A stretch of DNA of 32,052 bases, from assembly GCF_004138215.1 (NCBI RefSeq), contig NZ_RYYS01000005.1, positions 1-32,052 on the forward strand, in the 5' to 3' direction. Below, one piece after another: positions 10,903 through 26,283 of this stretch. A program made the translations under genes and the position numbers. The DNA is from Anaerophilus nitritigenes (GTDB taxonomy: Bacteria > Bacillota > Clostridia > Peptostreptococcales > Thermotaleaceae). Numbering within the stretch: the first letter of the stretch is position 1; each line of letters begins with the position of its first letter. Below the pieces are notes generated by a model. The model worked only from the letters and a program-made list of their open reading frames with translations. It had not been told where the DNA came from and did no database searches.

Positions 10903-12078
10903 ATGGCAGATTATAATGAAATGGCACTAAAACTCCATAAAGAAAACAAGGGTAAAATTACAATTGAAAGTAAAATTCCTGTAAAAAATAAAGATGATCT
11001 TTCTACTGCCTATACTCCTGGAGTGGCAGAGCCTTGTAAAAAAATTTATAAGAATAAAGAAGATGTGTATACATATACAGCAAAAGGAAATATGGTAGCT
11101 GTTGTAAGTGATGGAACTGCTGTATTGGGACTGGGAGATATAGGACCTTATGCAGCAATTCCTGTTATGGAAGGAAAAGCAGTGCTTTTCAAAGAATTTG
11201 CTGGAGTGGATGCTTTTCCTATTTGCTTAAATACTAAAGATGAAGAAGAAATTATAAAGACCATAAAGTTTATGGAGCCTATGTTTGGAGGAATTAATTT
11301 AGAAGATATTGCAGCACCTAGATGTTTTGAAATAGAAAGACGACTTCAAGAAGAATTAGATATTCCTGTATTTCATGATGATCAACATGGAACTGCTATT
11401 GTATGTTTAGCAGCTTTAATTAATGCTTTAAAACTTGCAGATAAAAAAATAGAAGATACAGAAGTAGTTATCAATGGACCAGGATCAGCAGGTATTGCAA
11501 TCGGAAAGATTCTTTTGCAAGCAGGAGTGAAGGATATTATATTTTGTAATAGAGAAGGTGCTATTTATGAAGGAATACAAGGACTGAATTGGGCACAAGA
11601 AGAAATCTCAAAAGTAACCAATAAGAAAAAACAAAAAGGAACTTTAAAAGATATAATAAAGGATAAAGATGTATTTATAGGAGTATCTGCTCCAAATGTA
11701 TTAACAAAAGAGATGGTATCTTCTATGAATAAAAAAGCTATTATATTTGCGATGGCAAATCCTACTCCTGAAATTATGCCTGATGAGGCTAAAGAAGCTG
11801 GAGCTTTTATTGTAGGGACAGGAAGATCTGACTTTCCAAATCAAATTAATAATGTACTTGCTTTTCCTGGTATATTTAAAGGAGCATTGGCTATTAGAGC
11901 AAAAAAAATTACAGATTATATGAAGTTACAAGCAGCTTATGCAATTGCTAATGTTTTAGGAGATGAGGAATTAAGAGTAGATCAAATTATTCCAAACCCT
12001 TTTGATGAAAAGGTAGCGCAAGCTGTATCAGATGCAGTAATGAAAGCTGCTAAAGAAGAAGGAATGACAAGTAAATAA
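10903..12078 (+). CDS. NAD(P)-dependent malic enzyme (malate -> pyruvate + CO2)
   Basis: This enzyme oxidatively decarboxylates L-malate to pyruvate in the cytoplasm. The 391 aa match the short bacterial class (similar to B. subtilis YtsJ and the N-terminal part of E. coli MaeB). Catalytic Tyr is in AYTPGVAEPCK (Y37) and catalytic Lys in GKAVLFK (K92). Metal ligands are in NLEDIAAPR (E134, D135) and FHDDQHGTA (D160). The nucleotide-binding loop GPGSAG is at 192-197. Cofactor preference cannot be read with confidence. The gene has an AAGGAGG site and its own terminator, and stands alone between ftsH and the two-component pair. It may supply pyruvate and reducing power when C4-dicarboxylates are used. 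Confidence 0.95.
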   Translation: MADYNEMALKLHKENKGKITIESKIPVKNKDDLSTAYTPGVAEPCKKIYKNKEDVYTYTAKGNMVAVVSDGTAVLGLGDIGPYAAIPVMEGKAVLFKEFAGVDAFPICLNTKDEEEIIKTIKFMEPMFGGINLEDIAAPRCFEIERRLQEELDIPVFHDDQHGTAIVCLAALINALKLADKKIEDTEVVINGPGSAGIAIGKILLQAGVKDIIFCNREGAIYEGIQGLNWAQEEISKVTNKKKQKGTLKDIIKDKDVFIGVSAPNVLTKEMVSSMNKKAIIFAMANPTPEIMPDEAKEAGAFIVGTGRSDFPNQINNVLAFPGIFKGALAIRAKKITDYMKLQAAYAIANVLGDEELRVDQIIPNPFDEKVAQAVSDAVMKAAKEEGMTSK

Positions 12079-12099: not shown

Positions 12100-12225
12100 A
12101 TTTACTGTTGAGCAATTTTCAGGAGAATATAAGGGATTTTAAATATATTTTGTTCTAAAATAGTAAAAGGAATTTTTACCAATCTATAGAATTGAATAAA
12201 TAGTATTTGTATAGGAGTGAATTTA

Positions 12226-14400
12226 GTGAAAAGTTTAAAAGTAAAGATACCGATACTGATTATTTTACTAGTTATATTTACTATTTTAGCAAGCAGTTAT
12301 GCATCCTATGAAATATTCTCAAATCAAATAAGAACAAACATTATAAATGAAAATGAAAGAATTGGAAATATGATTTCAGATCAAGTGAATCAATATTTAT
12401 TAGATGCACAAAACACAATAGAATATGTAGCTAAGAATGCTTCGACAGAGAGTATTGAAAATATTAAAAAAGATATTAAAAAAGTTTATAGTAGTTACAG
12501 ATGGATGGATGTTATGTTTTTTATGAATTCTGATGGAAAAATTATATATAGTATTCCTCATAACGATATTATTTATCATAGAGATTATTTAGATAGAGAA
12601 TATTATACATATATTAAAAAATATAAAAAAACATATATTAGTAAAGTGTTTACAAGCAGTATTTTGAATAAACCCCATATTATAATTGTATCACCTGTAT
12701 TTAGAGATTATAGTACAACTATTAAAGGAATTGTAGGGGGAGGAGTTCCTTTAGAATCTATTCAAAGAATTATATATAAAACGCAAAAATCTTATGAAGG
12801 AAGAATTTATGTAATTGACAAAGATATAAAAATATTAGTAAGTTCAGAACCCAAAGATATAGGACAAAAAATATTTTTGGATAAAAAGATTCAAATGAAT
12901 AACAAAGAATACACTGTAGATGAAATTATAAAAAATAATATAAAAGGAATAGGAAAATATCAAAAAGAATCTCATATAGTCCATATATCTTTTCATCATA
13001 TTGAAAATTACGAAGGGGTAGTAGTAGTAGAAAGAGATGAAGCTTATATTGGAAAGGAAATACAGCGTATTCAAAAAGAATTAATTATCTGGATTACTAT
13101 GATTATGGTTATAGCTTTAATACTTAGTTTATTCATTGCATATACTATTACAAAACCTATTGAAAAATTAGTTGTATATACAAGAAAAATAAGTAAAGAC
13201 ATCAAACAAGGGATCAAAGGATTTCAAGTTACAAAAAAGAATGAGATAGGAGAATTAGAGATTTCATTTTATAAAATGAGCAAGGAATTGAATAAAAAGA
13301 TAGAGGACTTAAAGAGACTTCATAAAAAAGAAGAAGACACCAAAAAATATTTGAATAATATCTTAAAAAGTGCAGGAACTGGTGTTATTGTTATTAATGA
13401 GGAAAAACAAATTGTAATTTTTAATAAAACTGCTGAAGAAATTACAGGAGTAGATGATATAAATATAATCGGCCAAAAAATAGAAAAATTAGTTTCAGTT
13501 TTAGAATTTCCTGAAGAATTATGGAGTATTTATGAAAAAGAGCAAAATAAAATTATAGAAAAAGAATATAAAATCAAAAACAGTAAGAAAGAAGAGATAT
13601 TTATAAGTATGATCGTTTCATCTGTATATAATGATGATGGACAGAGCATAGGTATAGTATGCTTGATGAAAGATTTAACTCATATAAAAAGGTTAGAAGA
13701 TCAATTAAGAAGAGAAGACAAATTAAAAACTATAGGAGAACTATCAGCTTCTATTATTCATGAAATAGGAAATCCTTTAGCAGGAATGACAAATCTTTTA
13801 GAAGTATTAAAAGATAATATGGATCATAAAGACATAAGAGAAGAAATCATATATACTTTAATAGAGGAAGTAGGTATGCTTAACAATATTGTAATTAATT
13901 ATTTGGATTTTACAAGAATGTATAGTGATAAGAAAGTATATATAAACATATTACATATTATACAAAGTGCTTTAAATATATTAAAAACAGAAATTAGATA
14001 TAAACATATTCGAATAATGAAAAAATTTCCATCTCAGGTTCCTCTGATTAAAGTATCTCCATCTACTATGAGACAAGCTATAGTAAATATAATTAAAAAT
14101 GGGATACAAGCTGTTGATAATTATGGCATTATTCAGATTGAAGTACAAAAGATAGACATTAATAAGGTTATGATTTTAATTATAGATAATGGAATAGGAA
14201 TAGATGAAAATATATTAGATAAAATATTTAATCCATTTTTCACCACAAAAGAAGATGGAACAGGGTTAGGTCTTTCTATTGTTCATAAAATTATTAAAGA
14301 TAATCAAGGACATATTTCTGTAAAGAGTAAAAAAAATAAAGGAACAGAATTTATATTGACCTTTGAAGGAGGAGATCCAGATGAAGGTACTTATTATTGA
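12226..14400 (+). CDS. Membrane sensor histidine kinase (Cache-like sensor, HAMP, PAS; DctB/NtrB-like)
   Basis: This sensor has 724 aa. Membrane segment 1 is at about 8-26, and an outer sensor region at about 35-283 with the dCache-like stretch from YRWMDVMFFMNSDG to HIIIVSPVF. Membrane segment 2 is at about 286-308 and is followed by HAMP (about 309-365). A PAS domain lies at about 373-490. The phosphoacceptor helix has H512 in SIIHEIGNPLAG, and the ATPase domain has the N-box (IIKNGIQAV), DNGIGID and TGLGLSIV. The GTG at 12226 has AGGAG eight bases upstream; the GTG at 12217 overlaps that site. It overlaps the sigma-54 activator gene by 20 bases. The layout resembles DctB-type dicarboxylate sensors; the ligand is inferred from the downstream genes. 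Confidence 0.9.
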   Translation: MKSLKVKIPILIILLVIFTILASSYASYEIFSNQIRTNIINENERIGNMISDQVNQYLLDAQNTIEYVAKNASTESIENIKKDIKKVYSSYRWMDVMFFMNSDGKIIYSIPHNDIIYHRDYLDREYYTYIKKYKKTYISKVFTSSILNKPHIIIVSPVFRDYSTTIKGIVGGGVPLESIQRIIYKTQKSYEGRIYVIDKDIKILVSSEPKDIGQKIFLDKKIQMNNKEYTVDEIIKNNIKGIGKYQKESHIVHISFHHIENYEGVVVVERDEAYIGKEIQRIQKELIIWITMIMVIALILSLFIAYTITKPIEKLVVYTRKISKDIKQGIKGFQVTKKNEIGELEISFYKMSKELNKKIEDLKRLHKKEEDTKKYLNNILKSAGTGVIVINEEKQIVIFNKTAEEITGVDDINIIGQKIEKLVSVLEFPEELWSIYEKEQNKIIEKEYKIKNSKKEEIFISMIVSSVYNDDGQSIGIVCLMKDLTHIKRLEDQLRREDKLKTIGELSASIIHEIGNPLAGMTNLLEVLKDNMDHKDIREEIIYTLIEEVGMLNNIVINYLDFTRMYSDKKVYINILHIIQSALNILKTEIRYKHIRIMKKFPSQVPLIKVSPSTMRQAIVNIIKNGIQAVDNYGIIQIEVQKIDINKVMILIIDNGIGIDENILDKIFNPFFTTKEDGTGLGLSIVHKIIKDNQGHISVKSKKNKGTEFILTFEGGDPDEGTYY

Positions 14401-15709
14401 TGATGAAAAAAGTATAAGATTGTCTTTAAAAGTGGGAATTGAAACAACAGGAATAACAATTTTTACTGCTGCTTCAGGGGAAGAGGGAATAGAAATTTTT
14501 AATAAGGAAAGACCTCGTCTATGCATTATAGATATTAATTTACCTGGAGTCAGTGGAATAGAAGTATTAAGAAAAATTCGAAAAAAAGATAAAGAATGTA
14601 TAATTATTATGATTACATATATTAGTGAAGTAAAACTTGCAGTGGAGGCTATGAAATTAGGAGCAAATGATTATTTTACAAAACCTTTTCATATTAAAGA
14701 ATTAAAAGAAACTATAGAGAAAAATATAAAATACATAGAAAAAATAAGAAGAATACCTAATAAAGAAAAAAATGAAATGCAAATTATAGGTGAGAGTGAA
14801 TGGATTGAATATATTAAACAAATTACTTATAAAGTTGGAAATATACATTATGATACTTTTATTTTTATTCAGGGAGAAAGTGGTACAGGAAAAGATGTTA
14901 TTGCAAAGGCTATTCATTTCAATGGAATACGTAAAAATAAGCCTTATGTAGCATTAAACTGTGCTGCTATTCCTAAAAATTTGCAGGAAAGTGAATTGTT
15001 TGGATATGAAAAAGGAGCTTTTTCAGGTGCAATAACTCAAAAAAAAGGACTTATAGAAGAAGCCAATGAGGGTACTTTATTTCTAGATGAAATAGGAGAT
15101 ATGGATATTTTACTTCAGGCAAAACTCTTAAGAGTTTTACAAGAAAAAAAATTTAGAAGAATAGGAGGAGTAAAAGAAATTGGATTTCGTGCAAATGTGA
15201 TTTCGGCAACGAATAAAGAAATCATAAAAGAGATAAAAAACAATAATTTTAGAGAAGATTTGTATTATCGGTTAAATGTAATTCCTATTCATACAAAACC
15301 TTTAAGAGAAAGGAAAAAAGATATTCCAGTTTTATTAGAATTTTTTATAAGACAATATAATAAAGAATTAAATAAAAACATAAAAGGAATGACAAAAGAA
15401 GCTTTGGAAATTGCAAAAAACTATGATTGGAGAGGAAATGTAAGAGAGTTAAAAAATCTTGTAGAAAGAGTAATGATTTTTAAAGAAGATGAATGGGTTG
15501 ATGTAGAGGATTTGCCACAAAATATTATTAGTTATGAAGTCGAAAACCCTAATGATTCTTTAAATATGAATCTTGAAAATGTTGAAATGGAAGCAATTCA
15601 TGCTGTATTAAGAAAAAATGAATGGAATATTACTAAAACAGCAGAAATTTTAGGGATATCTCGTGTGACGTTAAGAAGAAAAATTGAAAAATATAGTATT
15701 AATAAATAG
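14381..15709 (+). CDS. Sigma-54-dependent response regulator (NtrC/DctD family)
   Basis: This is an enhancer-binding protein that activates sigma-54 RNA polymerase when phosphorylated. The receiver domain is at 1-115, with phospho-acceptor D51 in CIIDINLPG and the conserved Lys in FTKPF. The AAA+ domain spans about 135-365, with Walker A GESGTGK (165-171), the sigma-54 contact loop GAFSGA (212-217; the usual form is GAFTGA), and Walker B TLFLDEIGD. A Fis-type helix-turn-helix is at the C-terminus (about 405-440, TKTAEILGISRVTLRRKI). The ATG at 14381 has AGGAGG upstream; an in-frame ATG at 14363 precedes that site. It shares an operon with the kinase and directly precedes a sigma-54 promoter, its likely target. 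Confidence 0.95.
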   Translation: MKVLIIDDEKSIRLSLKVGIETTGITIFTAASGEEGIEIFNKERPRLCIIDINLPGVSGIEVLRKIRKKDKECIIIMITYISEVKLAVEAMKLGANDYFTKPFHIKELKETIEKNIKYIEKIRRIPNKEKNEMQIIGESEWIEYIKQITYKVGNIHYDTFIFIQGESGTGKDVIAKAIHFNGIRKNKPYVALNCAAIPKNLQESELFGYEKGAFSGAITQKKGLIEEANEGTLFLDEIGDMDILLQAKLLRVLQEKKFRRIGGVKEIGFRANVISATNKEIIKEIKNNNFREDLYYRLNVIPIHTKPLRERKKDIPVLLEFFIRQYNKELNKNIKGMTKEALEIAKNYDWRGNVRELKNLVERVMIFKEDEWVDVEDLPQNIISYEVENPNDSLNMNLENVEMEAIHAVLRKNEWNITKTAEILGISRVTLRRKIEKYSINK

Positions 15710-15722
15710 GTGGTAAATTTTG

Positions 15723-15758
15723 AAACAAAGGTGATAAATTATTTATCACCTTTGTTTT
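15723..15758 (+). terminator. Terminator of the two-component operon
   Basis: A perfect 16-bp stem (15723-15738 with 15742-15757) has a 3-base loop. The stem contains AAAGGTGATAAA and ends in TTTGTTTTA. It separates the regulator pair from the sigma-54 promoter. Confidence 0.85.
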
Positions 15759-15780
15759 ATTATGTAGAAAAAAATATATA

Positions 15781-15875: not shown

Positions 15876-15891
15876 TGGCATGAAAATTGCT
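15876..15891 (+). promoter_or_regulatory. Sigma-54 (-24/-12) promoter of the transporter/methylmalonyl operon
   Basis: TGGCAT-GAAAA-TTGCT fits the sigma-54 consensus TGGCAC-N5-TTGCW with one mismatch. GG (15877-15878) and GC (15889-15890) are exactly 10 bases apart, as required. The predicted start is near 15902, giving a leader of about 110 bases before the transporter ATG. It lies directly after the gene for a sigma-54 activator. Confidence 0.85.
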
Positions 15892-16010: not shown

Positions 16011-17381
16011 ATGAAGTTTGATGCAGTAGCTTGGATTATGAGTCCGTATATTCTTATGTTTATCGCTGTTGTAACAGGATTATTATTTGGGAAAATTAAA
16101 TTTGGAAAATTTAATTTTGGAATATCAGGGGCTCTATTTACTGGACTTGTTATAGGATGGGGAGTACTAAAATATGCAAATGAGTTTACACCGTTAGATC
16201 AACATTTTAATACAGCTCAAAAATTAATTGAGACAGGAGTTATTTCTAAGAACTTTTTTACTATTTTTCTAATTTTATTTGTAGCAGCAGTAGGCCTTTT
16301 AGCGGCAAAAGATATGGATACTGTTCTTAAGAGATATGGATCAAAGTTTATAGCATTAGGAATAATAATTACCTTTATGGGGGCAGTGGCGACTTATGGA
16401 ATGACTCTTTTAAGTGATGATGCAAATCCATATCAAGTATCAGGAGTATATACAGGAGCTTTAACTAGCTCTCCTGGTCTTGCTGCAGCTATTGAAACAG
16501 CAACAAAACATTCTACTAAGGCTGTAGAAAATTATGAAAATTATACATTAGAAGAGAAACAAAAATTATTAAAATTATTAGAACCACTTGGAAACTTGAC
16601 TCCACAAGATCATCCTACTTTAACAAAAGAGCAAGCAAATCAGTTTATAAAAGATGCACAAGCAGGCATTGGAGTAGGTCATGCTATTGGATATCCTTTT
16701 GGAGTAATTGTTATAATTTTAGCTATAAATTTAATCCCTAAGTTATTTAATATTGATGTAGAAAGTGAATTAAATCAATTTAGAATAGAAATGGAAGAAG
16801 CAAGAAAAGAGAAAGGAGGGAAACAAGTTTCAGAAGTTTCATTTGATCTATTAGCTTTTATTGCAGCTTGTCTATTTGGATATACTATTGGAGTTATAGA
16901 AATTCCTCTAGGACCGTTAGGAAACTTTAGCTTAGGAGCTACAGGAGGAGTTTTGATTGGAGCTTTAATTTTAGGATATATAGGTAAAATTGGATTTATG
17001 AATTTTAGAATGGATAATAAAATACTAGGAGTAATTCGTCAAGTGGCATTAGCATTTTTCTTGGCAGTTGTAGGTTTACAATATGGATTTAAAGTATTCG
17101 ATGCTATAGCAGGAAGTGGAATGTATTTAGGAATAGTATCCTTGGTAGTAGGTTTTGTATCTTGTGTAGTAGGTTTTGGAATAGGCAAATATATTTTTAA
17201 GATCAATTGGATTATGTTATCAGGTGCTATATGTGGAGGAATGACATCTACTCCAGGTTTGGGAGCAGCCATAGATGCAATAGGTAGTGATGAGCCTGCA
17301 GCAGGATACGGAGCTACTTATCCGTTTGCTTTACTAGGAATGGTTATATGGACAATTATATTGCATAATTTGCCTATGTAA
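16011..17381 (+). CDS. Aspartate:alanine-exchanger (AAEx) family transporter, probably for a dicarboxylate
   Basis: This is a 456-aa membrane protein with about ten hydrophobic segments in two halves around a hydrophilic stretch (about 163-218). Each half carries the family signature: LTSSPGLAAA (151-160) and MTSTPGLGAA (411-420). Both are followed by a Y-P-F segment (GYPFG, ATYPFA). Family members include the AspT aspartate/alanine antiporter, YidE/YbjL, and the SucE succinate exporter of Corynebacterium. The TrkA-C (RCK_C) domains found in many YidE-type members are not visible here. As first gene of the sigma-54 operon, ahead of succinate-converting enzymes, it is a candidate succinate uptake system or succinate/propionate antiporter; substrate and direction are inference. 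The site AAGGAGG precedes the ATG. Confidence 0.82.
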   Translation: MKFDAVAWIMSPYILMFIAVVTGLLFGKIKFGKFNFGISGALFTGLVIGWGVLKYANEFTPLDQHFNTAQKLIETGVISKNFFTIFLILFVAAVGLLAAKDMDTVLKRYGSKFIALGIIITFMGAVATYGMTLLSDDANPYQVSGVYTGALTSSPGLAAAIETATKHSTKAVENYENYTLEEKQKLLKLLEPLGNLTPQDHPTLTKEQANQFIKDAQAGIGVGHAIGYPFGVIVIILAINLIPKLFNIDVESELNQFRIEMEEARKEKGGKQVSEVSFDLLAFIAACLFGYTIGVIEIPLGPLGNFSLGATGGVLIGALILGYIGKIGFMNFRMDNKILGVIRQVALAFFLAVVGLQYGFKVFDAIAGSGMYLGIVSLVVGFVSCVVGFGIGKYIFKINWIMLSGAICGGMTSTPGLGAAIDAIGSDEPAAGYGATYPFALLGMVIWTIILHNLPM

Positions 17382-17432
17382 GTATGGCAACTATGATATT
17401 TTTATAAATATGGATGGTTTGGAGGGGTGTAT

Positions 17433-18932
17433 ATGTTAGAAAAAAGAATTAGAAGAGCAGATTTAAAAGATAAAATTATGTCTGCTGAAGATGCAGCTAT
17501 GCTATTTGAAGATGGAATGACTGTAGCAACTAGTGGATTTACTCCTGCGGGATATCCAAAAGAAGTTCCTTTGGCTTTAGCAAAAAGAGCAGAGAGAGGA
17601 GACAAGATAGGAATTACTTTAATTACAGGAGCCTCTGTAGGAGATGAGTTAGATGGAGTATTAACAAGAGCTGGTGTTATAAAAAGAAGATTTCCTTATC
17701 AAACTCATTCAGATTTAAGAGATTCTATTAATAAAGGCAATATTTATTATCAAGATATGCATCTTAGTCATGTACCACAATATATAGACTATGGTTTTTT
17801 TGGAGAAATTCATATTGCTGTAGTTGAGGCTTTGGCTATAACAGAAGAAGGAGGAATTATTCCTACTACTTCTGTTGGCATATCACCTCATGCTATTAAG
17901 AATGCAAAGAAGGTAATTGTAGAAATTAATACAAGTCAGCCTATGGAGTTAGAGGGAGTACATGATATTTATATTCCTAATAAACCCCCTAATAGAGAGC
18001 CTATACCTATTATTCATCCAGCAGATCGTATTGGAACTTCTTATATACCTTGTGATCCTGATAAAATTAAAGCTATTGTAATTACAGATAAAAAAGATAA
18101 AGTTAGACCTCTTGGAAGCATTGATGAAGATTCAAAAAAAATATCAGGATATATTATAGAATTTTTAGAACATGAAGTAAAAATGAATAGAATGCCTAAA
18201 AATTTATTACCATTACAATCTGGAGTGGGATCTGTTGCAAATGCAGTATTAGGAGGAATAGTAGATTCGAAATTTGAAAATTTAACTTGTTATACAGAAG
18301 TAATTCAAGATGCTATGTTTGATTTAATTGATGAGGGAAAAGTAACTGTAGCATCTGGTACGTCTTTTAGTCCATCGGAGGAGGGATTGAAAAGACTTAT
18401 TAAAAATATGAAGCATTATGCAAAACATTGCATTTTAAGACCTATGGAAATTAGTAATAATCCAGAAGTAACTAGAAGACTAGGTGTTATTGCTATGAAT
18501 ACAGCTATAGAAGTGGATATATATGGACATGTAAATTCTACTAATATTATGGGGTCTAAAATGATGAATGGAATAGGAGGATCAGGAGATTTTACAAGAA
18601 ATGCATACATTTCTATATTTACAACTGTTTCTACTGCTAAGAATGGAGATATATCTTCTATTGTACCTATGGTCTCTCATGTAGATCATACAGAACATGA
18701 TGTAGAAGTCATAGTTACAGAACAAGGAATTGCAGACTTAAGAGGACTTTCTCCACGAGAAAGAGCTAAAAAAATAATAAAAAACTGTGCTCATCCTGAT
18801 TATCAACATGTATTAATGGATTACTTAAAAAGAGCTGAGAAAGAAAAATTTAAATATCAGCCACATGTTTTAGAAGAAGCATTATCTTTTCATGATAGAT
18901 TCTTAAAAACAGGTAGTATGAAGATCAAGTAA
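17433..18932 (+). CDS. Acetyl-CoA hydrolase/transferase family protein, likely succinyl-CoA:acetate or propionyl-CoA:succinate CoA-transferase
   Basis: The enzyme moves CoA between carboxylic acids through a glutamyl-CoA intermediate. The 499 aa match the AarC/Cat1/ScpC class. The catalytic Glu is in the conserved CYTEVIQDAMFDL (E289), and a Gly-rich CoA-binding loop is in NGIGGSGDFTRNAY. The C-terminal VTEQGIADLRGLSPRERAK is a family hallmark. The ATG at 17433 follows GGAGGGG by a normal distance; a GTG at 17427 overlaps that site. In this operon it would activate succinate using propionyl-CoA (or acetyl-CoA), closing the cycle with no ATP cost. The exact acceptor and donor cannot be read from the sequence. 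Confidence 0.9.
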   Translation: MLEKRIRRADLKDKIMSAEDAAMLFEDGMTVATSGFTPAGYPKEVPLALAKRAERGDKIGITLITGASVGDELDGVLTRAGVIKRRFPYQTHSDLRDSINKGNIYYQDMHLSHVPQYIDYGFFGEIHIAVVEALAITEEGGIIPTTSVGISPHAIKNAKKVIVEINTSQPMELEGVHDIYIPNKPPNREPIPIIHPADRIGTSYIPCDPDKIKAIVITDKKDKVRPLGSIDEDSKKISGYIIEFLEHEVKMNRMPKNLLPLQSGVGSVANAVLGGIVDSKFENLTCYTEVIQDAMFDLIDEGKVTVASGTSFSPSEEGLKRLIKNMKHYAKHCILRPMEISNNPEVTRRLGVIAMNTAIEVDIYGHVNSTNIMGSKMMNGIGGSGDFTRNAYISIFTTVSTAKNGDISSIVPMVSHVDHTEHDVEVIVTEQGIADLRGLSPRERAKKIIKNCAHPDYQHVLMDYLKRAEKEKFKYQPHVLEEALSFHDRFLKTGSMKIK

Positions 18933-19054: not shown

Positions 19055-20731
19055 ATGGTTTTGAAAGAGAAATTAGACCAAATCAAAGAAACTTATATAG
19101 CTTATGAAGAAAAGGTAGGAGAATCTTTAAAGAAGAGACCCGAAAGAAAAGAAACTTTTGAAAGTGGGTCAGGAGAAATAGTTAATAGATTATACACTCC
19201 TTTAAATATTGAAAATTTTGATTACGAAAAAGATTTAGGTATGCCAGGTAGTTTTCCTTATACAAGAGGGGTACAACCAAATATGTATAGGGGAAGACTC
19301 TGGACTATGCGTATGTATGCAGGTTTTGCTACAGCAGAAGAATCTAATAAGCGTTACAAATTTTTAATTGAACAAGGTTCTATGGGACTTTCTGTAGCTT
19401 TTGATCTTCCAACTCAAATAGGATATGATTCAGATCATCCATTAGCAGAAGGAGAAGTTGGAAAAGTTGGAGTAGCTATTGATTCTTTAGCAGATATGGA
19501 GATCTTATTTGATGGTATTCCATTAGATAAAGTATCTACTTCAATGACTATTAATGCACCAGCATCTGTTCTTTTAGCTATGTATATTGCAGTTGCTGAA
19601 AAACAAGGAGTTACTCCAGAAAAATTAAGAGGGACTATTCAAAATGATATTTTAAAAGAGTATATTGCTCGTGGAACATATATTTTCCCAACAGAAGCAT
19701 CTATGAGACTTATTACGAATATATTTGAGTATTGTTCAAAAGAAGTACCACAATGGAATACAATAAGTATTTCAGGATACCACATTAGAGAAGCAGGCTC
19801 TACTGCTGCACAAGAAGTAGGATTTACTTTAGCAGATGGAATTGCTTATGTAGAAGCTGCTATTAATGCAGGATTAGATGTAGATACTTTTGCTCCTAGA
19901 TTATCATTTTTCTTTAATGCTCATAATGATATTTTAGAAGAAGTGTCAAAATTCAGAGCAGCAAGAAGATTGTGGGCAAAAATTATGAAAGAAAGATTCA
20001 ATGCAAAGAAGCCAAAATCAATGCAACTAAAATTTCATACTCAAACAGGGGGATCAACTCTTACAGCTCAACAACCAGAGAATAATATTGTACGTGTAGC
20101 TATTCAAACTCTAGCAGCTGTTTTAGGAGGAACTCAATCCCTTCATACAAATTCTAAAGATGAAGCTTTGGCTCTTCCTACTGAGGAATCTGTAAGAACA
20201 GCTTTAAGAACACAACAAATTGTAGCCTACGAAAGTGGTGCTGCAGATACGGTAGATCCTTTGGCAGGTTCATACTTTATTGAAGCAAAAACAAAAGAGA
20301 TAGAAGAAGAAGCTATGGAATATATTAGAAAAATAGATGAAATAGGTGGTGCACCAAGAGCGATTGATAATGGATATATTCAACAAGAAATTATGGATGC
20401 AGCTTACAATTATCAAAGAGATATAGAGAACGGAAAAAGAATTATTGTAGGAATGAATAAATTCCAAACAAAAGAAGAACCACCAAAAGGATTACTAAGA
20501 GTAGATCCTATTGTAGGGGAGCTTCAAAAGAAAAAATTAAAAGATTTAAGAGCTAGAAGAGATAATGAACTTATAAAAGAAAGATTAGAAAACTTAAGAA
20601 AGGCATGTGAGGGAAATGATAATTTAATGCCTTATATATTAGATGCAGTAAGAGTATATGCTACATTAGGAGAGATATGTGGAGTTATGAGAAAAGTTTT
20701 TGGAGAATATCAACAAAGTATACAATTATAA
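19055..20731 (+). CDS. mcmA1: Methylmalonyl-CoA mutase large (catalytic) subunit
   Basis: This is the substrate-binding barrel of B12-dependent methylmalonyl-CoA mutase, which interconverts succinyl-CoA and (R)-methylmalonyl-CoA. The 558 aa lack the B12 domain, which is made by the next gene, as in split mutases of archaea and many Gram-positives. [11 protein letters not shown] (about 81-91) keeps the Tyr (Y88), and EASMRLI keeps the Arg (R218), that bind the carboxylate of methylmalonyl-CoA; isobutyryl-CoA mutases have Phe and Gln there. Other hallmarks are [16 protein letters not shown] and GVAIDS. The 122-base gap before it holds a TATAAT (19015-19020) without a good -35 box, so a secondary promoter is possible. 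The ribosome site is GAGGAGG. Confidence 0.95.
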
Positions 20732-20773: not shown

Positions 20774-21169
20774 ATGGATAGACCCATTAGAGTATTAGTA
20801 GCAAAGCCTGGCTTGGATGGACATGATAGAGGGGCAAAAGTTATTGCAAGAGCTTTAAGAGATGCGGGAATGGAAGTTATATATACAGGTCTTAGACAAA
20901 CTCCAGAACAAATTGTCAGTGCTGCAATTCAAGAAGATGTTGAATGTATTGCTATGAGTATTTTATCTGGAGCACATAATACACTTCTTCCAAAAGTAGT
21001 TGAGATATTACAAAAAGAAGGAGTAGATGATATTTTAGTTTTGGGTGGAGGGGTAATTCCAGATGAGGATATTCCATTTTTAAAAGAAAAAGGAATTAAA
21101 GAGATTTTTACTCCAGGAACTCCAACTTCAAAAACTATCGAATTTATAAGAAATAATATAAAAAGATAA
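20774..21169 (+). CDS. mcmA2: Methylmalonyl-CoA mutase small (B12-binding) subunit
   Basis: This is a 131-aa cobalamin-binding domain. Residues [18 protein letters not shown] contain the DxHxxG motif (D15, H17, G20), whose His replaces the lower ligand of cobalt. The Rossmann-like strands (SILSGAH near 57-63 and [11 protein letters not shown] near 90-100) are typical of the mutase C-terminal domain. It begins 42 bases after the large subunit, with AAAGGGGG as ribosome site. It would join the large subunit to form the active mutase. The length equals the standard detached B12 domain, so it is intact. Confidence 0.95.
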
Positions 21170-21215: not shown

Positions 21216-21245
21216 AGTATAACTATGTGTAGAGGTGGTGATCAA

Positions 21246-22175
21246 ATGGATTTAGGAGCTAGATTATTAAATGGAGAAAAGAGAGCTGTTGCAAGATTAA
21301 TTACAATGATTGAAAATAACGAAAAAGAAGCAGTTAATATTTTAAAAAAATATTATAATAAAACAGGAAAGGCTCATGTTATTGGTATTACGGGGCCTCC
21401 AGGGGCTGGGAAAAGTACTCTTACAGATAAGCTTATAAAGCAATTAAGAAAAGAAGGGAAAACTATAGGGGTGATTGCTATAGACCCTACTAGTCCTTTT
21501 ACGGGTGGATCTATATTAGGAGATCGTGTAAGGATGAATGAATTAAGTACAGATCCAGGTGTTTTTATAAGAAGTATGGGAACAAGGGGTCAGTTAGGGG
21601 GACTTTCTAAAGCTACTCAAGGAGCTGTAAAAATATTAGATATTTATGGAGTTGATTACATATTTATTGAAACAGTGGGGGTAGGACAATCAGAAGTAGA
21701 TATTGCAAAAAATGCAGATACTACTCTTATGGTAATGGTTCCAGGTTTAGGAGATGACATTCAAGCTATTAAAGCAGGAATTATGGAGATAGGAGATGTA
21801 TTTGCTATTAACAAAGCAGATAGAGATGGTGCAAAGAGAACTGCAACAGAGATTGAAATTATGCTTGATTTTAATAAAACAGACCGAAGACCACCTGTAC
21901 AAAAAGTTATAGCAATCGAAAATAAAGGAATCGATGAATTGATTGTACATATTAAAGAGCATATGAATTATTTAAAAGAAACAGGTCAACTACACAAAAA
22001 AAGGATTAAAAATAGCAAATTAGAGATTGTTGATTTGATTCAGCAAAAAATGATGAATATGATATTAGATCGATCATCTAAAGAAGAGATAGTTGATAAA
22101 TTAGCAAAAGATGTTGCTTTAAGAAAGCTAGATCCATATTCAGCTGGAGAAAAAATATTAGAAGAAATAAAATAA
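21246..22175 (+). CDS. meaB: MeaB-type G-protein chaperone of methylmalonyl-CoA mutase
   Basis: This GTPase of the G3E/MeaB (ArgK) group guards B12 loading and protects the mutase from inactivation. Of 309 aa, the P-loop GPPGAGKST is at 50-58. Next come the switch region [19 protein letters not shown], the Walker B/switch II part [13 protein letters not shown], and the base-recognition motif [10 protein letters not shown]. The C-terminal helical tail is the dimerisation arm of the family. The ATG at 21246 has AGGTGGTG upstream; a TTG/ATG start further upstream would extend into the hairpin. The gene lies directly after both mutase subunits, the usual place. ArgK transport-kinase labels on such genes are historical. 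Confidence 0.94.
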
Positions 22176-22206: not shown

Positions 22207-22608
22207 ATGAATATATTGAATGTAGATCATATTGGGGTAGCTGTAAAAAACTTGGATGAAACGTTAAAATTTTATCAAAATATTTTAGGATTAAAGCTAC
22301 AAGGAACAGAAGTAGTACAAGAACAGAAAGTAAAAGTTGCATTTATTCCAATAGGAGATACAGAAGTGGAATTACTAGAATCTACAGAAGTAGATGGACC
22401 CATTGCAAAATATATTGATAAGAAAGGAGAAGGACTACAACATATCGCATTTAGAGTTGAAAATATTGAAGAGGCTATTAAGGAATTAAAGGAAAAAGGT
22501 GTTAAAATGATAGATGAAAAACCACGATATGGTGCAGGTGGTGCAAAAATTGCATTTTGTCATCCTAAGGATACAAATGGAGTTTTGATAGAATTAAGTG
22601 AAAGATAA
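22207..22608 (+). CDS. mce: Methylmalonyl-CoA epimerase
   Basis: The enzyme interconverts (R)- and (S)-methylmalonyl-CoA, needed because the mutase makes the R form and the decarboxylase uses the S form. The 133-aa vicinal-oxygen-chelate fold shows metal ligands His in [11 protein letters not shown], His in [12 protein letters not shown] and Glu in GVLIELSER at the C-terminus, plus ELLEST. Length is typical. It has a perfect AAGGAGGA site and lies 31 bases after meaB and 42 bases before mmdA, clearly inside the operon. Confidence 0.95.
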
Positions 22609-22650: not shown

Positions 22651-24198
22651 ATGTCAAATAATAAACTAGAAGATTTACAAAGACGAAAAGAAAAAATAAT
22701 CCTTGGAGGAGGACAAAAAAGAATTGAAAAACAACATGCATCAGGAAAATTAACAGCAAGAGAAAGATTAAATCTTTTGTTTGACGAGGGTACTTTTGTA
22801 GAATTAGATGCCTTTGTAAAACATAGATGTACAAATTTTTCAATGGAAAAAGAAGAAGCACCGGGAGAAGGAGTAGTTACTGGATACGGTATGGTAGATG
22901 GCAGATTAGTATATGCTTATGCGCAGGATTTTACTGTAATTGGAGGATCTTTAGGGGAAATGCATGCAGCAAAGATATGCAAAGTACAAGAAAATGCTAT
23001 GAAAGTAGGGGCCCCTATAGTAGGACTAAATGACTCAGGAGGAGCAAGAATTCAAGAAGCAGTAGATGCATTATCAGGATATGGAAAAATATTTTATAGA
23101 AATACTATTGCTTCAGGAGTAATTCCTCAAATATCAGCTATTATGGGACCTTGTGCAGGAGGAGCAGTATATTCACCAGGAATTACAGATTTTATATATA
23201 TGGTAGATCAAACAAGTAAAATGTTTATTACAGGACCGCAAGTAATAAAGACTGTTACGGGAGAAGAAGTTTCAGCAGAAGATTTAGGTGGAGCCAAGAC
23301 TCATAATACTATTAGTGGAGTTGCTCATTTTGTAGCATCAGACGATGAAGATTGCATACTGCAAATCAGAAAACTTTTAAGTTTTTTACCATCTAATAAT
23401 ATAGAAACAGCTCCAGTGTATGAAACAGAAGATGATGTAAATAGAATTATTCCAGAACTAGATGAATTGCTTCCAGATAACCCTAATAAACCATATGATA
23501 TGTTTGATGTTATTTCAAAAGTTGTAGATGATGGAGATTATTATGAGGTACATTCTCAATTTGCGAAAAATATTATTACTTGTTTTGCAAGAATGAATGG
23601 AAGTACAGTAGGAATTATTGCAAATCAGCCCAAATTTTTAGCTGGATGCTTAGATATTAATGCATCTGATAAATCAGCAAGATTTATCAGGTTTTGTGAT
23701 GCTTTTAATATTCCACTCCTTAATATTGTAGATGTTCCAGGATTTTTGCCAGGAACAAAGCAAGAATATGGTGGAATTATACGTCATGGAGCAAAACTGC
23801 TTTATGCATATAGTGAAGCTACAGTGCCTAAAGTTACATTAATTACAAGAAAAGCTTATGGAGGATCATATATTGCTATGTGCAATAAAGAACTAGGAGC
23901 AGATATGGTGTTTGCATGGCCTAGTGCTGAAATTGCAGTTATGGGACCTGAGGGAGCTGCAAATATTATTTTTAAAAATGATATTAAAAATGCACAAGAT
24001 CCTGTTGAAGAAAGAACAAAAAAAATTCAAGAATATAAAGATGAATTTGCTACACCTTATAAAGCAGCAGAAAGAGGTTATGTAGATGATGTTATTGAGC
24101 CAAATTCTACAAGACCAAGACTTGTAGATGCTCTTAATATGCTTATGTCAAAGAGAGAAAATAGACCTGCTAAAAAGCATGGAAATATTCCTCTATAA
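22651..24198 (+). CDS. mmdA: Methylmalonyl-CoA decarboxylase alpha subunit (carboxyltransferase)
   Basis: This soluble subunit moves the carboxyl group from (S)-methylmalonyl-CoA to biotin on MmdC, leaving propionyl-CoA. The 515 aa show the two-part crotonase-like carboxyltransferase: N-half with [20 protein letters not shown] and [15 protein letters not shown]-half with [25 protein letters not shown] shortened here by description and [10 protein letters not shown]. The family also includes propionyl-CoA carboxylase beta. The decarboxylase role is preferred because membrane subunits (mmdD, mmdB) and a free biotin carrier follow, while no biotin carboxylase gene is present. GGAGGA precedes the ATG. 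Confidence 0.94.
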
Positions 24199-24230: not shown

Positions 24231-24653
24231 ATGGATAACTTAATACTTCTAGAGAAATTTGCTAACCCAGAGTTAATTCATAGTTTGTCCCTTGGAGATA
24301 AGTTAGTAGCTTCTTTGAATGTAATGATATTAGGAATGGGTGTAACATTTATTGCTTTAGTTATTTTATGGGGGTTGATTGTACTAATGTGTAAAATGTT
24401 AAAAAGTCAAGAAAAAGAAATCAAAATACAACAAGAAGTATCTGTAGAGGATTCTATTATAAAAGACCCTACTATAGATGGAGTAGAAAATGAAGAAGAA
24501 TTAGTAGCTGTAATTACTGGAGCGATTGCTGCAACTTTAAGAACTTCTACTCATAATATTGTAGTAAAAAATATTAAAAGAATAACAGATCCTACACCAA
24601 CTTGGGCAAGAGCTGGGAGAATGGAACAAATGAACTCAAAAATATTTCATTAA
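24231..24653 (+). CDS. mmdD: Methylmalonyl-CoA decarboxylase delta subunit (OadG/MmdD type)
   Basis: This is a small membrane subunit that holds the Na+ pump together. In 140 aa there is one membrane segment (about 28-54, starting at LNVMILGMGVTF), a charged linker, then a C-terminal region (about 84-140) with AVITGAIAA and TPTWARAGRMEQM. The WARAGR-type end is typical of MmdD; in Veillonella a separate small epsilon subunit resembles this C-terminal part, but no such extra gene is seen here. It sits between mmdA and mmdC with 32 and 42 base gaps. The ribosome site is GAGAGGTG. Confidence 0.9.
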   Translation: MDNLILLEKFANPELIHSLSLGDKLVASLNVMILGMGVTFIALVILWGLIVLMCKMLKSQEKEIKIQQEVSVEDSIIKDPTIDGVENEEELVAVITGAIAATLRTSTHNIVVKNIKRITDPTPTWARAGRMEQMNSKIFH

Positions 24654-24695
24654 TATGTATTTAAAGATATTAAAAAAGACGAGAGGAGTATGAAA

Positions 24696-25103
24696 ATGAA
24701 AAAATTTAATATTACTGTAAATGGAAATAGTTATGAAGTAGAAGTAGAAGAAATCAAGGGAGGATCTTCAACGCCAATACAAAGACCTATACAACAACCT
24801 ACACAACAAAGAGTATCACCTCCAAAGGTACCAACTAAGGTAACACCAAAAGCTGAAACAGTATCAGCACCAAAAGAAGTACCAGCAGGAGCAAATACAG
24901 TTACAGCTCCTATGCCAGGAACAATTTTAGATTTAAAAGTAAAACAAGGAGATGTAGTAGCTAAGGGTCAAGTACTTTTAATTTTAGAGGCTATGAAAAT
25001 GGAGAATGAAATTATGTCTCCTTCAGAAGGAAAGATCGTGTCTATTAATACAACAAAAGGTGCTTCTGTAAATGCAGGAGATGTATTGGTTGTAGTAGGA
25101 TAA
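24696..25103 (+). CDS. mmdC: Methylmalonyl-CoA decarboxylase biotin carrier subunit
   Basis: This 135-aa carrier shuttles carboxyl groups from MmdA to the membrane subunit MmdB. Its N-terminus (1-20) is a short conserved strand. A flexible Pro/Thr/Gln-rich linker spans about 22-65, and the biotinyl domain about 66-135. Biotin is attached to K101 in LEAMKMENEI. The ATG at 24696 has AGGAG seven bases upstream; the ATG at 24690 is too close to that site. BirA, which would attach the biotin, is encoded just after the operon. Confidence 0.95.
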   Translation: MKKFNITVNGNSYEVEVEEIKGGSSTPIQRPIQQPTQQRVSPPKVPTKVTPKAETVSAPKEVPAGANTVTAPMPGTILDLKVKQGDVVAKGQVLLILEAMKMENEIMSPSEGKIVSINTTKGASVNAGDVLVVVG

Positions 25104-25140: not shown

Positions 25141-26283
25141 ATGATGATACATACAATCACAAAATTTCTGTATGATACTGGTTTTAGAGGATTATTTGAA
25201 CAGCCAGGAAATATTATTATGATTATTGTTTCGTTTGTATTGTTGTATTTAGCGATTAAAAAAGGTTTTGAACCTCTCCTTTTGATACCCATAGCTTTTG
25301 GTATGCTTTTGGCAAATTTACCCTTTGCAGATTTAATGAAGCCTCATGGAGGGCATGGAGATCCAGGAGGATTGTTATGGTATTTTTTCCAAGGAGATGA
25401 ATTCGGAATTTTTCCACCTATTATTTTTATGGGTGTAGGTGCTATGACTGACTTTGGACCTCTTATTGCAAATCCAAAAGCCTTGCTTTTAGGAGCAGCA
25501 GCTCAATTTGGCATATTTACTACTTTTATAGGAGCTATTTTATTAGGATTTACAGGACAAGAAGCAGGATCTATAGGAATTATAGGAGGAGCGGATGGAC
25601 CTACAGCAATATTTTTGGCATCAAAATTAGCACCAAATTTATTAGGAGCTATTGCTGTAGCAGCGTATTCGTATATGGCACTCGTACCTATTATCCAGCC
25701 TCCTATTATGAAATTTTTAACTACGAAAGAAGAACGTATGATCAAAATGGATCAATTAAGAACAGTATCAAAAACTGAAAAAATTATATTTCCTATTATG
25801 GTTACACTTGTAGTATCTTTAATGCTTCCACCAGCAGCTACTTTAATTGGTATGCTTATGCTTGGAAATTTATTTAGAGAAAGCGGATTTACTAAAAGAT
25901 TATCAGAGACAGCACAAAACTCTTTGATTAATATCGTAACCATATTTTTAGGACTTTCAGTAGGAGCTACTGCAAGTGCAAAAAATTTTTTAACGGAAGA
26001 AACATTGAAAATAGTTTTTTTAGGGGTAGTAGCTTTTGCAGTAGGAACTGCAGCAGGAGTGATTCTTGCTAAAATTATGAATAAGTTATCGGGAGGAAAA
26101 ATTAATCCTTTAATTGGTTCAGCAGGAGTTTCAGCAGTTCCAATGGCAGCTAGAGTTTCACAAGTAGTAGGGCAAAAAGAAAATCCTTCTAACTTTTTAT
26201 TAATGCATGCTATGGGGCCGAATGTGGCAGGGGTTATAGGTTCAGCTGTAGCGGCAGGAATGATGCTTTCGTTGTTTGGTTAA
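25141..26283 (+). CDS. mmdB: Methylmalonyl-CoA decarboxylase beta subunit (Na+-translocating)
   Basis: This membrane subunit decarboxylates carboxybiotin and exports Na+. The 380 aa form about ten hydrophobic segments. The most conserved parts are [21 protein letters not shown], whose Asp takes part in Na+ transport in the related OadB, and [17 protein letters not shown]; the C-terminal part contains [17 protein letters not shown]. The family also includes the beta subunits of oxaloacetate and glutaconyl-CoA decarboxylases, so the substrate comes from the neighbours, not from this gene. ATG at 25141 follows AAGGAG; ATG at 25144 is also possible. It is the last gene before a strong terminator. 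Confidence 0.95.

Follow-up and report, generated by a model that had tools for sequence, protein, structure and literature searches.

As has been described for the aspartate:alanine exchanger (AAEx) family (PF06826, TIGR01625, TC 2.A.81), transport by AspT is an electrogenic exchange that is tied to the decarboxylation of aspartate (PMC9508256), and SucE (SucE1) of Corynebacterium glutamicum is a succinate exporter (PMC9527358, PMC7419537). As the family holds both a succinate exporter and an amino-acid exchanger, membership fixes neither the direction of transport nor the substrate. In Clostridioides difficile, CD2344 has been assigned to succinate uptake, in an operon described as importing and converting succinate (PMC6143707), and has been termed a putative succinate transporter (PMC6232153). 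Carriers of other families are also relevant, including the SLC13/DASS proteins encoded beside the succinate pathway of Phascolarctobacterium faecium, which are proposed succinate importers (PMC7568257), and the 2HCT family of CitS, which includes precursor/product exchangers (PMC7419537).

The carrier and its family

The window, a stretch of 32,052 nucleotides from Anaerophilus nitritigenes (NCBI RefSeq assembly GCF_004138215.1, contig NZ_RYYS01000005.1), encodes at positions 16011..17381 of the + strand an AAEx-family carrier of 456 residues with an ATG start. It is of the CD2344 type and probably imports succinate. The original prediction had placed the protein in the AAEx family on the basis of duplicated TSSPGLA/TSTPGLG signatures and had noted no TrkA-C domain, and both observations are borne out. 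PF06826 matches in two stretches (16056-16739 and 16857-17366; whole-protein score 211.3 bits, Pfam cut-off 27), corresponding to the two Asp-Al_Ex membrane repeats of the family, and TIGR01625, the duplication domain of AspT, YidE and YbjL, passes its cut-off of 71.95 with a score of 109.6. Elsewhere in the genome (3.06 Mb, 112 contigs, 99.5% complete) no second place that matches PF06826 was found. In an alignment of 24 relatives, each position of TSSPGLA (residues 152-158; 16464..16484, + strand) and TSTPGLG (residues 412-418; 17244..17264, +) shows conservation of 90% or more, up to full invariance, and the same holds in 48 aligned relatives except for A158.

Pfam gives PF06826 alone, with no TrkA-C, and the linker between the repeats (residues 246-279; 16746..16847, +) is 34 residues long, compared to 180-205 residues in eight AspT, YidE, YbjL and TrkA-C-type rows of the same alignment. 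The large inter-repeat domain in those rows is annotated as TrkA-C in three of the eight, and we take the same name to apply to AspT, YidE and YbjL; the carrier does not have this AspT/YidE/YbjL architecture. It does possess a clade-specific insert of about 50 residues in repeat 1 (residues 166-217; 16506..16661, +), which measures 52 residues in the carrier and 1-13 residues in the short relatives and the AspT, YidE and YbjL rows. The insert is restricted to a long clade and is lacking from short relatives that are likewise linked to a CoA-transferase. A histidine in the motif GHAIGYP, which the window carrier shares with the rows from Propionigenium and C. difficile, is replaced by tyrosine in L118, a SucD-type locus, and thus shows no clean correlation with specificity.

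An AlphaFold2 model of the carrier (pLDDT 85.7) has AspT as its best structural match (Foldseek E 9.3e-11), and aligns to four solved AspT entries with Z of 33.6-36.6, the highest over 389 residues, so that by its predicted model the protein has the AspT fold. Behind AspT come the Na+/citrate symporter CitS, with Z reaching 20.4, and, at a greater distance, the oxaloacetate decarboxylase beta-gamma complex (Z 14.4); VIA-align rows from about Z 11 downward represent general CPA-type folds and were not taken as functional evidence. The protein is best read as an anion carrier of two repeats with an AspT fold, probably of the elevator type.

Despite sharing two copies of PF06826, a fold and linkage to a substrate-consuming enzyme with AspT, the carrier is not AspT, as judged from its TIGR03802 score (122.4, far short of the equivalog cut-off of 546.95), the tree, the signatures and the linker. 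Two AspT rows lack TSSPGL/TSTPGL, while the window carrier lacks the inter-repeat domain of about 190 residues, and the window has no aspartate decarboxylase; in two records aspT lies beside aspD. A quick-method tree, which has long branches for the YidE, YbjL, AspT and TrkA-C forms and was used just for broad separation and for context changes within the clade, places the carrier in a clade separate from AspT and YidE and together with CD2344, which answers, for AspT and YidE, a phylogenetic check that had been proposed with the original prediction. In the quick tree, two TrkA-C forms (from Actinomyces and Caballeronia, one each) lie a long way outside this clade. SucE can be likened by description only, as an AAEx member tied to succinate and described as an exporter.

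The operon and its promoter

The carrier gene is the first of an operon that consumes succinate and makes propionate, as had been predicted, and the same order recurs in another phylum (see below). All genes lie on the + strand, and the order is carrier, succinate CoA-transferase (17427..18932; TIGR03458 and NF053853 over cut-off), large (catalytic) subunit of methylmalonyl-CoA mutase (19055..20731), B12-binding mutase subunit (20774..21169), MeaB GTPase (21225..22175), methylmalonyl-CoA epimerase (22207..22608) and the decarboxylase subunits. The latter comprise methylmalonyl-CoA decarboxylase alpha, mmdA (22651..24198; TIGR01117 969.5 bits, slightly below the cut-off of 998.8), an OadG/MmdD-like subunit (24231..24653), a biotin carrier subunit (24690..25103) and the Na+-translocating decarboxylase beta subunit (25141..26283). 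The B12-binding subunit, MeaB, the epimerase and the biotin carrier share 76%, 62%, 72% and 48% identity, respectively, with annotated Ilyobacter counterparts.

Upstream, also on the + strand, are a malic enzyme gene (10903..12078), linked to the operon, a sensor kinase with dCache_1, PAS, HisKA and HATPase domains (12217..14400) and an NtrC/AtoC-type sigma-54 response regulator (14363..15709). A terminator-like hairpin 3' of the regulator genes (15721..15759, +; -21.5 kcal/mol, z -7.15), which lacks a strict T run and was not listed by a terminator scan of the window, parts them from the operon. About 120 bp 5' of the carrier gene lies a sigma-54 (-24/-12) promoter-like site, TGGCATGAAAATTGCT (15876..15891, +), the best such site of the window and the sole one with a single mismatch. 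Sites with up to two mismatches number 14 in the window against 8.3 expected, and the others therefore carry little meaning. Relatives provide a stronger test: a site scoring at least 9/11 is present in 9 of 9 loci with this regulator just upstream (7 distinct, because some order-level and named loci, such as L044/L073 and L046/L074, come from the same genomes) and in 6 of 89 loci without it; in L143, where this regulator does not directly precede the carrier, a site scores 10/11. The sensor kinase and the sigma-54 activator would probably turn on the operon at the -24/-12 site, and the sensor domain may read a carboxylate, although its matches to KinD (E 0.0019) are too weak to show a ligand class. 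An Rfam search of the window gave no family over threshold.

Comparison with CD2344

Both CD2344 qPCR primers, as printed in PMC12285225, have perfect matches within the AAEx ORF of the C. difficile locus L110, and one of them, tried on 179 loci, matched four, the C. difficile loci L110-L113. The gene order in L110 (AAEx carrier, CoA-transferase, SucD-like dehydrogenase, 498-residue protein, second CoA-transferase, iron alcohol dehydrogenase) is the published order of CD2344-CD2338 (PMC6143707, PMC3510511). The regulatory-site sequence listed for CD2344 in PMC3510511 has no exact match in L110, which counts against the assignment in detail and may reflect a strain difference. From the primer matches and gene order, the C. 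difficile loci are identified as CD2344.

The L110 protein is 56% identical to the window carrier over its full length, and the two fall into one clade apart from AspT, YbjL and YidE (quick tree), share the 52-residue insert and the signatures, and are each encoded directly before a succinate CoA-transferase. They differ in setting: CD2344 is described as feeding succinate to crotonyl-CoA (PMC6143707), while the product of the window operon, which includes a Na+ pump, is propionate, and a sigma-54 system lies upstream. Since CD2344 is a putative succinate transporter, succinate transport by AAEx proteins of this kind has already been proposed and the window carrier is a further member. The expectation that a succinate specificity would be new consequently does not hold for succinate uptake, given the description of CD2344 in PMC6232153, and the list of known family members given with it, which named aspartate/alanine exchange and succinate export by SucE, omitted CD2344.

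Gene context among relatives

A sample of named genomes was drawn from at least 591 candidates, of which 532 were confirmed as relatives and the best 80 were used, and thus leans towards close relatives. With Ilyobacter added there are 81 loci, of which one has no AAEx ORF, ten are too short to judge (four of these still show a CoA-transferase) and 70 were judged. Within these 70 (best 80 of 532 plus Ilyobacter), 30 loci are propionate-type, with the mutase downstream, 13 are SucD-type and 27 are neither, and a CoA-transferase is among the next two genes in all 43 propionate- and SucD-type loci and in none of the 27 others. One of the latter, L121, has two upstream ORFs that by eye resemble another kind of CoA-transferase. 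Split by identity, the linkage in the same set (best 80 of 532 plus Ilyobacter) is present in 41 of 46 loci at 55% or above and in 2 of 24 below, with five of the 27 unlinked loci at 55% or above. At the order level, all 18 full-length loci of the long clade whose context was retrieved have the CoA-transferase (13 with the mutase, two with SucD, three alone), a count that leaves out the window's own locus, G037 (too short) and a fragment from G026 (L065), in which the carrier is followed directly by the mutase and no CoA-transferase was called.

Context labels were assigned by BLAST against the window proteins and a few neighbors, with NCBIfam models applied to the proteins of L110, L058 and L047 only. 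In these three loci, none of the SucD-like proteins, the 498-residue protein, the second CoA-transferase or the alcohol dehydrogenase reaches the cut-off of the model that would name it, so that their names rest on the published CD2344-CD2338 order and 'butyrate-type' is our own reading of such sets. In other loci, the label SucD reflects similarity and what we take this enzyme to be.

The propionate operon extends beyond the Bacillota. An identically ordered operon with the same kind of carrier at its head is present in Ilyobacter polytropus (Fusobacteriota), and Propionigenium maris likewise has the operon with this kind of carrier first. In P. maris the carrier-CoA-transferase pair is present twice, in the propionate operon and beside a SucD-like dehydrogenase, and both proteins are 88% identical between the copies. 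In one genome of the window's own family, carriers with and without a mutase operon are 90% identical. Across a tree of 47 rows, the setting changes between SucD-type and propionate-type at least five times. As the carrier is also tied to gene sets of a succinate-to-butyrate type, propionate is not its constant partner.

Distant short relatives display a third setting, with the gene for the beta subunit of succinyl-CoA synthetase next in seven of eight loci (the exception being L064) and the alpha subunit as well in six; the identity of the synthetase was checked with NCBIfam for one of them. Seven short paralogous loci include four with a CoA-transferase, two with a SucD-like dehydrogenase alone and one with neither.

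Several further contexts were observed. On a plasmid of Thermovirga lienii (Synergistota; L036:4446-7101), an AAEx gene that is split by a transposase gene adjoins a succinate CoA transferase. Two Clostridium loci (L145 and L150) with carriers of about 50% identity have neighbors that by eye resemble aconitase, PrpF and PEP carboxykinase, which suggests that other members of the clade transport di- or tricarboxylates, and a 45% identical carrier in Fusobacterium vincentii (L034) has no CoA-transferase and, by eye, neighbors that resemble cell-wall and division genes. A small DUF3870 protein (PF12986) is encoded directly after the carrier in 28 of 99 loci, and in 4 more it precedes the carrier at a distance of one or two genes; by any BLAST match it is present in 34 loci from the Bacillota and Fusobacteriota (e.g., L078:11497-11829). 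Searches of the window's genome and of the genus relative G001 gave no match, and three other genomes gave matches.

Substrate and direction of transport

Succinate or succinyl-CoA is the metabolite common to a CoA-transferase with the mutase, a CoA-transferase with SucD, and succinyl-CoA synthetase. The constant across these settings is succinate, not propionate. The carrier is thus a strong candidate for a succinate importer of the CD2344 type, possibly carrying other C4-dicarboxylates too (probability about 0.82). This reading rests on the clade shared with CD2344, the conserved pairing with succinate-activating enzymes and the presence of the operon in succinate fermenters, and is well supported by computation; succinate as the substrate and the inward direction are our inference. 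The carrier would take up succinate and pass it to the adjacently encoded CoA-transferase, the resulting succinyl-CoA would be isomerized to methylmalonyl-CoA, which the Na+ pump would decarboxylate, and the propionyl-CoA so formed would donate its CoA to the next succinate. The setting resembles that of the SLC13/DASS carriers of P. faecium, which also lie beside a succinate-to-propionate pathway, though these belong to another family and are proposed to work by Na+ symport (PMC7568257).

The remainder of the genome was surveyed for other routes. No match to DcuA or DcuB was found in the genome, which has one CitM/ArsB-like protein and two systems of the TRAP type. One is a DctP-type transporter that is accompanied by regulators of its own and could also import C4-dicarboxylates, and the other has an NMT1-like binding protein. 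The sole PF02910 protein is NadB, so a classical fumarate reductase was not found in the genome by this model, while an unusual type may still exist. As this leaves no classical fumarate reductase identified as an internal source of succinate, uptake is favored, short of proof. In a separate cluster (L171, G000:C64:33000-50000), genes for MutL, a B12-binding protein of the glutamate-mutase type, methylaspartate ammonia-lyase, a class-I fumarase-type hydratase and citrate-lyase-type proteins occur together, probably representing the methylaspartate pathway of glutamate fermentation.

For a succinate importer, possible modes of coupling are exchange against a released monocarboxylate, in the manner of AspT, or symport with H+ or Na+, the latter as in CitS. 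Exchange is plausible given that AspT is an electrogenic exchanger, and the same fold also serves Na+ symport. A bolder and rather unlikely proposal is that the carrier and CoA-transferase form a movable exchange module, in which external succinate2- is swapped 1:1 for the monocarboxylate just released (propionate, butyrate or acetate); if true, uptake would cost nothing, one charge would be conserved, and the module would plug into different succinate fermentations.

It is also conceivable, if improbable, that the carrier mainly imports malate or fumarate for a dismutation of C4-dicarboxylates, with succinate made inside the cell. The malic enzyme gene upstream indicates that malate or fumarate may also be carried, and genes of the fumarase or malic enzyme type are present in the fetched stretch of 11 of the 30 propionate-type named loci (best 80 of 532 plus Ilyobacter). 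However, in the SucD-type and succinyl-CoA synthetase-type settings it is succinate itself that is activated, the sole PF05681 gene of the genome sits in the methylaspartate-pathway cluster, and the search of the genome turned up no classical fumarate reductase that would form succinate internally.

The original prediction had offered the carrier as an importer or as a succinate/propionate antiporter, and it is the first half that is well supported, through the CD2344 clade and the pairing with succinate-activating enzymes. An obligate antiporter would take succinate2- in and propionate- out, adding one charge per turnover to the work of the Na+ pump. Such a scheme has its prototype in AspT, an electrogenic exchanger that works with a decarboxylation (PMC9508256) and whose gene lies beside aspD; the fold is related to that of CitS, from a family that includes precursor/product exchangers (PMC7419537), and a 1:1 exchange would fit a CoA-transferase that frees one product acid for each succinate activated. 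The association with propionate is nevertheless not exclusive, as 13 of the 43 CoA-transferase-linked named loci (best 80 of 532 plus Ilyobacter) are SucD-type and the settings interchange repeatedly on the 47-row tree, and a phrase search of the available literature for such an antiporter gave no match. On the basis of the SucD-type linkage, the duplicated pair of P. maris and the 90% identical carriers with and without a mutase operon, a propionate-specific antiporter was rejected, and an obligate one is unlikely. With 2 Na+ moved per decarboxylation, as stated for oxaloacetate decarboxylase (PMC8473912), and the fermentation yields given below, there would be room for one more charge through exchange only when product concentrations are low, if 10-14 kJ/mol is taken as the price of a charge.

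Export of succinate or another acid, with the operon fed by internal succinyl-CoA or propionate, has a precedent in SucE of the same family (PMC9527358, PMC7419537) and could apply to the succinyl-CoA synthetase-linked relatives, which might be releasing succinate, but is very unlikely here as the description of the CD2344 operon is one of succinate uptake and conversion (PMC6143707), Propionigenium modestum, of a genus sampled here, is described as living from succinate decarboxylation (PMC8473912), and a classical fumarate reductase was not found in the genome.

Succinate import in succinate-fermenting anaerobes

Import of succinate by a carrier of this type bears on the energetics of a fermentation that yields -24.4 kJ/mol under standard conditions and -43.5 kJ/mol at 1 mM (PMC8473912), as at so low a yield the cost of import affects whether succinate supports growth. 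A search of literature titles found none on succinate import in Propionigenium, and the available text of PMC8473912 and PMC7568257 names no carrier for it. The protein is of a kind that is already known, that of CD2344, and, as a probable succinate importer, is encoded at the head of a Na+-pumping succinate fermentation operon. The carrier-CoA-transferase pair, present in P. maris, Ilyobacter and many Clostridia, offers a concrete candidate for succinate import by succinate-decarboxylating anaerobes, and links CD2344 of C. difficile to a family with solved structures, those of AspT.
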